Below are positions 27,867 through 29,779 of a stretch of 47,812 nt of DNA, piece after piece (the first letter of the stretch is position 1; the number at the start of each line of letters is the position of its first letter). The notes beneath the pieces are model-generated. The model was given only the letters and a program-made list of their open reading frames with translations, ran no database searches and was not told the origin of the DNA. A program made the translations under genes and the position numbers. Source of the DNA: Fibrobacterota bacterium. Lineage in GTDB: Bacteria > Fibrobacterota > Chitinivibrionia > Chitinivibrionales > FEN-1185. The DNA lies in NCBI GenBank assembly GCA_003165595.1, contig PLWQ01000032.1, positions 1-47,812 of the forward strand, in the 5' to 3' direction.

Positions 27867-28802
27867 TCAGGCGGCGCCGTAGAACCGATCGCCCGCCACA
27901 ATCCGAACCGATACGCCGCCGCGCTTGACGAGAAGCGACAGCGCCGATGCGGTGTCGTTGATGGGACGGCCGGTGGTAACCGCAAGATCCTCCACGGTGC
28001 AGGGCCGGCGGCGGAGGGTGGCGAGGATGGTAGACGCCAGCGCCGAGTCTCCGACGGATGCCGCGGGCGCGGTATAGGCGCGCGAGATGATCTCAACGGG
28101 CGCGGGTCGCAGGAAGTTCGCAATGTCGAGCAGCTCGGCGGTCGTGGCCGGCCGGACCGAGGCGCTCGCGCCGGGCCTGTCCAGCGTATTGAGCTGCACG
28201 CGGCCCGGCGCTATCGACAGGATCGCGCCTTTGAGCAGCGCCAATTCGTTCAATGAGTCGTTGACGCCGGGCACGATAAACACCTCAAGCCACAGGCGGC
28301 CCTTGTACTCGCGGGCGAACTGCGCTATGCCGGCGATGATCGCGGCGCTATCGAGGCCGCGAAGAGGGCGATTTACTTTAGAAAATGTTTCATCCGATAC
28401 CGCGTCGAGCGAGGGCAGCACGCAGTCGAACAGGTGCGCCGCCCTGCGGACCTCCGGGAGGGAAAGCAGCGTGCCGTTGGTGAGCAGCGCGGTTGTATAC
28501 CCGGGGAAGGATTGCTTCACAAAAGAGACAACGGCGTCGATCCCGGTGTTGAGCGTGGGCTCGCCCGAGCCGGTTATCGTCACCACGTCGAGCTTCGGCG
28601 AGGTTGCGAGAAAATCCGAAAGCTCGGCGATAATGGCTAGCGGCGGCGCCCATTCCTTGCGTTCGGCCGAAAGGACCGTGGTTTTTCCGCATTCGCAATA
28701 CACGCAGTTGAGATTGCACACTTTTGCCGGAACGATGTCGACGCCGAGCGAGAGCCCCAGCCGGCGCGATGCAACGGGGCCGAAAAGATAGGTGTATGAC
28801 AT
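27867..28802 (-). CDS. Radical SAM protein (COG0731-like) with C-terminal winged helix
   Basis: 311 residues from ATG at 28,802; a GTG at 28,814 is also possible. The start YLFGPVASRRLGLSLGVDIVP and the CNLNCVYC cluster (Cys29, 33, 36) are the signature of a common radical SAM family related to TYW1/COG0731. ITGSGEPTLN binds SAM and GVNDS marks the later strand. Residues 240-311 form a small HTH domain (ALASTILATLRRRPCTVEDLAVTTGR). The substrate is unknown. It is transcribed away from the DUF1573 gene after a terminator. Confidence 0.85.
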   Translation of the reverse strand: MSYTYLFGPVASRRLGLSLGVDIVPAKVCNLNCVYCECGKTTVLSAERKEWAPPLAIIAELSDFLATSPKLDVVTITGSGEPTLNTGIDAVVSFVKQSFPGYTTALLTNGTLLSLPEVRRAAHLFDCVLPSLDAVSDETFSKVNRPLRGLDSAAIIAGIAQFAREYKGRLWLEVFIVPGVNDSLNELALLKGAILSIAPGRVQLNTLDRPGASASVRPATTAELLDIANFLRPAPVEIISRAYTAPAASVGDSALASTILATLRRRPCTVEDLAVTTGRPINDTASALSLLVKRGGVSVRIVAGDRFYGAA

Positions 28803-28817
28803 AGGGTTCCGCACAAA

Positions 28818-28846
28818 AGAAACGGGCCCTGGAATTCAAGGCCCGG
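28818..28846 (-). terminator. Terminator of the DUF1573 gene
   Basis: On the minus strand CGGGCC and GGCCCG (plus positions 40-45 and 23-28 of the 28,800 block) form a stem around a 10-base loop, followed by TTTCTTTT. It ends the transcript of the gene finishing at 28,873 and overlaps the leader of the radical SAM gene. Confidence 0.6.
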
Positions 28847-28872: not shown

Positions 28873-29631
28873 TTACTTCTTTGTTTCGGCGCTCACGTCG
28901 ATAAATCCGTTTGCCTTGAGTTCCGGCATGTCCGGATGGTTGGAGACAATGGTGAATTCGCCGAACCTGTTTTCCTTTATGTCAACAATATCTTCCGAGA
29001 GCTTGAGCTTGTAGTCCCACGAACCGTCGGCCGTGGGTTTGTCCGGCTTTGTCAATGTGAACATCAGGTGGTCGGGCAACGACGACAACCATGCCGCCTG
29101 ATTGGGGCCGGTTCCCTGTGAAGACTTGAAGGTCGCTTCCTTCACCACGAGATCGGGCTTGTCGGTGGAGAGCGTAATCTCCACTTCGAACTTGCCGCTC
29201 TTGCTCCGCCTCATCTGGATATAGTCCGGGTTCGCCGCGAGCGGCACCTTGAGCGTCATCTTGACGCACAAATGCAGGTCGGGCTTGTTCCTGGCGTTTG
29301 AGCTGACCGTGACGCATTTACTGAACGTTCCGCCGTGCGCCTTGGCGAGATTCACTTCCGGTGTAATGGAACCTTCCCGACCGGGAAGGATGGTGGTATC
29401 GAAACCCACCACGGTGCATCCTCAGCCAGGCCTCACGTCTCTGATGACCAGCACGCTGTCGCCGGTATTCTTCACCTTGAATACGTACTTGGCCGACGCC
29501 TTCGTACCCTGCTTTATGGTGCCCAGGTTGACTTCTTCGGAATCAACCGAGATCATAGGGCCGGTCTTGCAGGCAGCGGGTACAACGAGCAGCATTGCCA
29601 TCACAAAGAGTGTCGCGAGCGTTTTCTTCAT
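28873..29631 (-). CDS. DUF1573 exported protein, candidate selenoprotein (in-frame UGA at 29,424-29,422)
   Basis: 252 codons read through one in-frame TGA. ATG at 29,631 follows AAGGAG. A signal peptide with a lipoprotein-like end (VPAAC, Cys21) precedes a DUF1573 domain: NLGTIKQGTKASAKYVFKV, NTGDSVLVIRDVRPG, then TGA, then GCTVVGF, ILPGREGSI and GGTFSKCVTVSSNA. Family members normally read RP.CGCT here; TGA replaces the first Cys, giving U70-G71-C72. No frame change occurs, and similarity continues on both sides. A SECIS-like hairpin follows the TGA. Residues 120-252 are a further beta-rich domain. Protein function is unknown; the U-G-C pair suggests redox chemistry or metal binding. A point-mutated pseudogene is the main alternative. 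Confidence 0.8.
29372..29411 (-). promoter_or_regulatory. Candidate bacterial SECIS element downstream of the in-frame UGA
   Basis: Counting from the base after TGA: bases 11-16 (TGGTGG) pair with 26-31 (CCACCA), leaving a 9-base loop that begins GT at 17-18. Bacterial SECIS elements have a loop 16-37 bases after UGA with a G in its first two positions, so this fits. A second hairpin at 33-50, CCTTCCC-GGTC-GGGAAGG, has the same GGUC loop as E. coli fdhF, but its loop at +40 is slightly too far. Part of it is dictated by the family's PG..G codons. Confidence 0.6.
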
Positions 29632-29732: not shown

Positions 29733-29779
29733 GTTTGCTAACCCCGAAACAAGCTTCGAGGTTAGCAAACTTTGGGATT
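29733..29779. repeat. Inverted repeat C, copy 1 (hairpin between GyrI-like and DUF1573 genes)
   Basis: GTTTGCTAACC (29,733-29,743) and GGTTAGCAAAC (29,760-29,770) are perfect arms, extended inside by CGAA/TTCG. Bases 29,746-29,779, including AAGCTTCG and GCAAACTTTGGGATT, recur in opposite orientation at 47,777-47,812. It may act as terminator of the GyrI-like gene. Confidence 0.6.

Follow-up and report, generated by a model that had tools for sequence, protein, structure and literature searches.

The stretch of DNA that we analysed (the window, 47,812 nucleotides of contig PLWQ01000032.1 from a Fibrobacterota bacterium) has two open reading frames on its minus strand, one ending at 29422 and the other extending from 29412 to 28873. 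They share the same frame and are separated only by a TGA codon (Table 1). Read as a single gene, they begin at an ATG at 29631, with a sequence resembling a ribosome-binding site (AGGAG) just 5' of it, and terminate at a TAA at 28873. The read-through product matches the DUF1573 domain (PF07610) with a score of 69.3 bits, against a cut-off of 26.1 bits; the match covers residues 27-118 and has the TGA inside it. There is also a match of 41.5 bits to a HYDIN/CFA65-like Ig domain. A preliminary description of this DNA had already proposed that the two adjacent frames are one frame split only by the TGA, and that reading through it yields one DUF1573 protein; the sequence and the domain match bear out both points.

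Table 1. Features of the DUF1573 locus and of the associated genes discussed in the text.
Feature	Position	Strand	Description or basis
Candidate DUF1573 selenoprotein gene	28873..29631	-	252 aa with read-through; homologues read through in 13 genomes
Parts of the DUF1573 protein			N-terminus resembling a signal peptide; DUF1573 at residues 27-118; a second domain at about 125-250
TGA codon, probable Sec, residue 70 (U of U-G-C; C72 is the second Cys)	29422..29424	-	Column comparison with homologues
Whole SECIS-like element, inside the coding sequence	29372..29424	-	Covariance model and synonymous differences
Hairpin 1, 3' of the UGA (columns 13-35, counting from the first letter of the TGA)	29390..29412	-	93% of cells paired
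Hairpin 2, probably the SelB-binding hairpin of the SECIS (7 pairs; GGUC tetraloop at 29382-29379, invariant)	29372..29389	-	Pairing and covariation
Radical SAM gene, conserved downstream neighbour	27867..28814	-	Next to the orthologue of the DUF1573 gene in 17 of the 18 genomes that have it
Terminator-like hairpin with T-rich tail, between the DUF1573 and radical SAM genes	28823..28845	-	9 pairs, 7 of them GC; z = -3.4
selA and selB, side by side	contig 23		Sec genes of the window's genome
selD	contig 27		Sec gene of the window's genome
Cys-form orthologues			G005, G029, G030, G032 and G037; selA not found

The TGA lies at residue 70, the position of the first Cys in the CGC motif of DUF1573 proteins; two paralogues in the window's own genome have the motif RPGCGCT. 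Across 23 homologues, residues U70 and C72 are the only invariant Cys/Sec positions, and no other Cys, Met or His is invariant. The N-terminus, read by eye, consists of MKKT followed by a hydrophobic stretch, and relatives show A-x-A before the domain, so the protein looks as though it is exported by an N-terminal signal. Cys21 is not conserved, which argues that the protein is generally not a lipoprotein. A sequence search found no relatives of the protein in the PDB, and predicting its structure from this sequence alone was uninformative (pLDDT 45.6).

We found a radical SAM gene directly downstream on the same strand. It is next to the DUF1573 orthologue in nearly every genome that has one, whether in the Sec or the Cys form, so the DUF1573 protein might be a substrate or partner of the radical SAM enzyme. 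We think this unlikely: the radical SAM gene is present in 36 of 40 genomes, in at least 18 of them without a DUF1573 orthologue as its neighbour; in the window, a terminator-like hairpin stands between the two genes; and radical SAM enzymes are cytoplasmic whereas the DUF1573 protein looks exported. Because the radical SAM gene also occurs in genomes without the orthologue, and because of the intervening hairpin, we did not adopt a functional unit of the two genes and built no mechanism on the neighbour. On the other side, between a GyrI-like gene and the DUF1573 gene, there is a 16-pair inverted repeat on the minus strand at 29733-29770 (GTTTGCTAACCTCGAA...TTTCGGGGTTAGCAAAC; fold z-score -4.5). 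No T-run follows it, and it may be either a terminator or a regulatory site.

We searched for homologs in 151 relatives and in 168 genomes of the phylum, and found that the family occurs across most of the order but hardly beyond it. In the 40 genomes of the order, 14 homologues from 13 genomes have one internal stop codon, which is always TGA and always in the same column, the first Cys of CGC, and their homology to relatives spans the full length of the protein past the TGA. We compared 38 further homologues, none of which has a stop at this position: in 37 the residue is Cys, within a C[GS]C motif, and the one in genome G002 reads CEC. The remaining TAG, TAA and TGA codons reported inside homologues are ordinary termini. 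The alignment thus bears out the placement of the TGA exactly at the first Cys, and the exchange between TGA and Cys in that column, that the preliminary description had led us to look for. Conservation of TGA at one column in so many genomes rules out chance and a sequencing error–for example, a misread TGC or TGT–and on the same ground we rejected a pseudogene and an alternative genetic code. Were the TGA an ordinary stop, the locus would be either a pseudogene or a pair of distinct small proteins, and this is the picture that conventional gene callers would give, since with a TGA in frame they would yield two ORFs; more generally, standard gene calling would cut or split DUF1573 genes of this type. 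We regard this reading as extremely improbable, given the shared column and the homology beyond it, and it leaves the link to selA and the RNA element described below unexplained. Some further details emerged from these searches. Genome G039 has a second, divergent TGA-containing DUF1573 gene (G039:C288:2744-3409; L063) with the same two-hairpin element; the window's genome has a tandem pair of Cys-form DUF1573 paralogues that belong to a Cys-only clade (G000:C41:230197-231748; L054); and a scan of named genomes gave only a single match of 18 residues (L053), which is probably due to chance. A scan of viral contigs gave no match.

The genome to which the window belongs (5.39 Mb; 98% complete) contains the genes expected if the TGA is a Sec codon, and for which the preliminary description had called for a search. 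There is a gene for tRNA-SeC with anticodon UCA, followed directly by selA (468 aa; 508 bits against TIGR00474), which in turn adjoins selB (292 bits; cut-off 242), and there is a selD gene (369 bits). We found no Sec-containing formate dehydrogenase in this genome. When 380 kb were scanned by codon usage for more TGA-interrupted genes, the positive control, the DUF1573 gene of the window, was not recovered, so that scan carries no information. In genome G003, contigs 6 and 244 each have a tRNA-Sec gene with selA nearby, making two Sec loci in one genome.

Across the order, selA is present in 14 of the 40 genomes, and the TGA form of the gene occurs in 13 of these 14 and in none of the 26 genomes without selA (Fisher P = 1.2 x 10−9, a value that overstates the significance because the genomes are related and so not independent). 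The exception, G002, has selA and tRNA-Sec, and no TGA homologue was found in its assembly, which is 79% complete. This distribution bears on the possibility that the TGA is read through or recoded as something other than Sec–for example, as Trp or by a suppressor. The frame does remain open past the TGA, which speaks for it. We nevertheless consider it very unlikely, because the homologues place Cys and not Trp at the TGA column, because the TGA form is found only alongside the Sec machinery, and because the other stops of the region act as stops.

The same relationship holds when only genes at the same locus, recognised by the radical SAM gene directly downstream, are compared. These orthologues have U in all 13 genomes with selA (counting the copy in G031, which lacks the radical SAM neighbour) and C in all 5 genomes in which selA was not found (Fisher P = 1.2 x 10−4). 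In a phylogenetic tree the Cys orthologues fall among the Sec ones, most clearly in the cases of G029, G032 and G037, and the paralogues from the window's genome sit in a separate group that has only Cys. Both states occur even within one genus, where G019 has U and selA, and G032 has C and no selA that we could find. G005 has a tRNA-Sec gene scoring above the cut-off together with a Cys-form orthologue, and selA was not found in its assembly, which is 83% complete; this pattern reflects either the incomplete assembly or a recent loss of the trait. The order offers a natural series of Sec-to-Cys changes that is unusually clean and tracks the loss of selA.

From the UGA onwards, the alignment of the 14 TGA genes is free of gaps over 57 nt, and it predicts two hairpins. 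Hairpin 1 pairs columns 13-20 with 28-35, and hairpin 2 pairs columns 36-42 with 47-53, with 93% of cells paired in the latter. Hairpin 2 is present in the Sec forms, which have 6.5 of its 7 pairs, and absent from the Cys forms, which have 1.9 of 7, and three of its pairs have changed on both sides in a compensatory manner. The contrast is weaker for hairpin 1, whose best 7-pair register is 94% paired in Sec forms and 58% in Cys forms. Taken together, the two hairpins have a covariation score of 0.249, compared to 0.136 in shuffled alignments and at most 0.097 when the pairing is slid. We searched the 40 genomes with a covariance model of the element (R1), which gave each of the 14 TGA genes a score of 66-83 bits and nothing else more than 39 bits. 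The next-best match, at 39 bits, is the Cys orthologue in G032, apparently a decayed remnant of the RNA element. Genome G024 has a dispersed 46-bp repeat at about 50 places that matches the model weakly (17 bits) and is probably an unrelated repeat family.

Synonymous differences point to the same region. Among the Sec genes, codons for the same residue differ in 33% of cases within the 17 codons that follow the UGA, compared to 61% downstream and 59% upstream; the corresponding values for the Cys genes are 62%, 65% and 62%. This reduction over both hairpins, in Sec genes only, indicates an additional constraint on the RNA. The window's own 57 nt fold into both hairpins with a z-score of -1.3, which is modest, so the case for a SECIS element is a comparative one.

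The position of hairpin 2 is unusual. Under the bSECIS model, bacterial SECIS elements have an apical loop of 3-9 nt, an upper stem of 4-16 bp and a G in the first two loop positions, and in most of them the apical loop is 16-37 nt from the UGA, with exceptions noted (PMC13188914). Hairpin 2 fits this model in its 7-bp stem and in its four-nucleotide loop, GGUC, which opens with G, but in all 14 genes this loop does not begin until 39 nt past the UGA, just outside the range of 16-37 nt. Hairpin 1 is within this distance but has no invariant loop. The SECIS of E. coli fdhF is similar in being a hairpin that lies within the coding sequence, 3' of the UGA, and in having GGUC as its apical loop (L122); its loop, however, starts 18 nt after the UGA, and it does not have the extra conserved hairpin that lies in between in the DUF1573 element. 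The 21 nt by which this distance exceeds that in fdhF roughly match the length of hairpin 1, from which we infer that hairpin 1 probably acts as a spacer. A covarying SECIS-like element that departs from the usual spacing rule is ready for direct use in a reporter.

Because the TGA falls in a Cys column, the TGA form occurs with selA, an RNA element is conserved and synonymous differences are halved over it, we conclude that the UGA of the DUF1573 gene is very probably decoded as Sec, with a probability of roughly 0.9 on this comparative sequence evidence. At that level of confidence, the comparison settles the DUF1573 proteins of this lineage as selenoproteins. In the mechanism that we propose, SelB carrying Sec-tRNA-Sec would be recruited by the GGUC hairpin and would insert Sec at codon 70, with hairpin 1 probably absorbing the added length that separates the GGUC hairpin from the UGA. 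The N-terminal signal would direct export of the product, in which U70 and C72, exposed on the outer side in the Ig-like DUF1573 domain, would act as a selenol/thiol pair, forming a U-G-C selenenylsulfide. In lineages that lose the Sec machinery, the codon would go back to Cys and the RNA element would decay. A more tentative and rather doubtful extension of this proposal is that the two-hairpin SECIS might represent a distinct bacterial class, in which a spacer hairpin folds away about 21 nt to leave the GGUC SelB hairpin at an fdhF-like distance, and that DUF1573 might be the main reason why the order keeps selenocysteine.

An exported selenol/thiol pair is the simplest reading of the invariance of U70 and C72 and of the lack of any other invariant soft ligand. 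Judging from the sequence, we give about even odds to a redox role for this pair, most probably in chemistry with thiols or oxidants; a soft-metal site is less likely. The main rival reading is still a selenoprotein, but one in which U70 and C72 either make up a site for a soft metal such as Cu or Hg or form a structural selenenylsulfide, and do not serve as a redox catalyst. We take this second reading seriously, while judging it somewhat improbable: DUF1573 resembles non-enzymatic Ig-like domains (the HYDIN/CFA65-like match), the function of the family is not known, and U-X-C spacing could chelate a metal, but the protein has no other invariant Cys, Met or His, and Sec in bacteria is mostly found in redox sites (PMC13188914).

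The preliminary description had presented this gene as a candidate new selenoprotein and did not place DUF1573 among the published selenoprotein families. The Sec assignment stands, on the TGA column, the sel genes and the relatives, and the claim of a new family does not. Each of the three findings that the description named as refuting Sec is contradicted: the genome has sel genes, relatives have TGA-containing homologues, and the shared TGA is no misread TGC or TGT. A 'DUF1573 domain-containing protein' (pfam07610) with UGC is tabulated as a selenoprotein in PMC9312934 and PMC13188914, and OS_HP2 (pfam07610, UxC) in PMC2398784, so that published tables from 2008, 2022 and 2026 include it and the main claim of novelty falls. 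PMC9312934 and PMC13188914 credit the DUF1573 UGC selenoprotein to Zhang & Gladyshev 2007, on the Olavius symbiont (reference 63 of PMC9312934). A full-text literature search turned up just three papers with any mention of DUF1573. All 23 of the aligned relatives match the NCBIfam model NF041425 (OS_HP2_seleno) with an E-value of 1e-3 or better. The window's protein scores 69 bits against this model, under its curated cut-off of 100, which indicates a divergent branch. Judged by its sequence, the gene is almost certainly a well-supported additional member of the published DUF1573/OS_HP2 kind and not a new family. What is new is an order-wide branch with two domains, a clean exchange between Sec and Cys that tracks selA, and a SECIS-like loop 39 nt from the UGA.

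The new branch shares with the DUF1573/OS_HP2 family its PF07610 domain, the Sec at the first Cys of CGC and the frequent occurrence of Cys homologues. It differs, as far as the family is represented by NF041425 and by the table descriptions, in that the window's protein includes an additional region, about 125 residues long; the branch is also spread through one order and has unusual SECIS spacing. The TlpA-like and Prx-like selenoproteins that contain UGC have an identical U-G-C tripeptide (PMC13188914, PMC2398784), but in those proteins it is carried by a thioredoxin-like domain, in contrast to the Ig-like domain of DUF1573.
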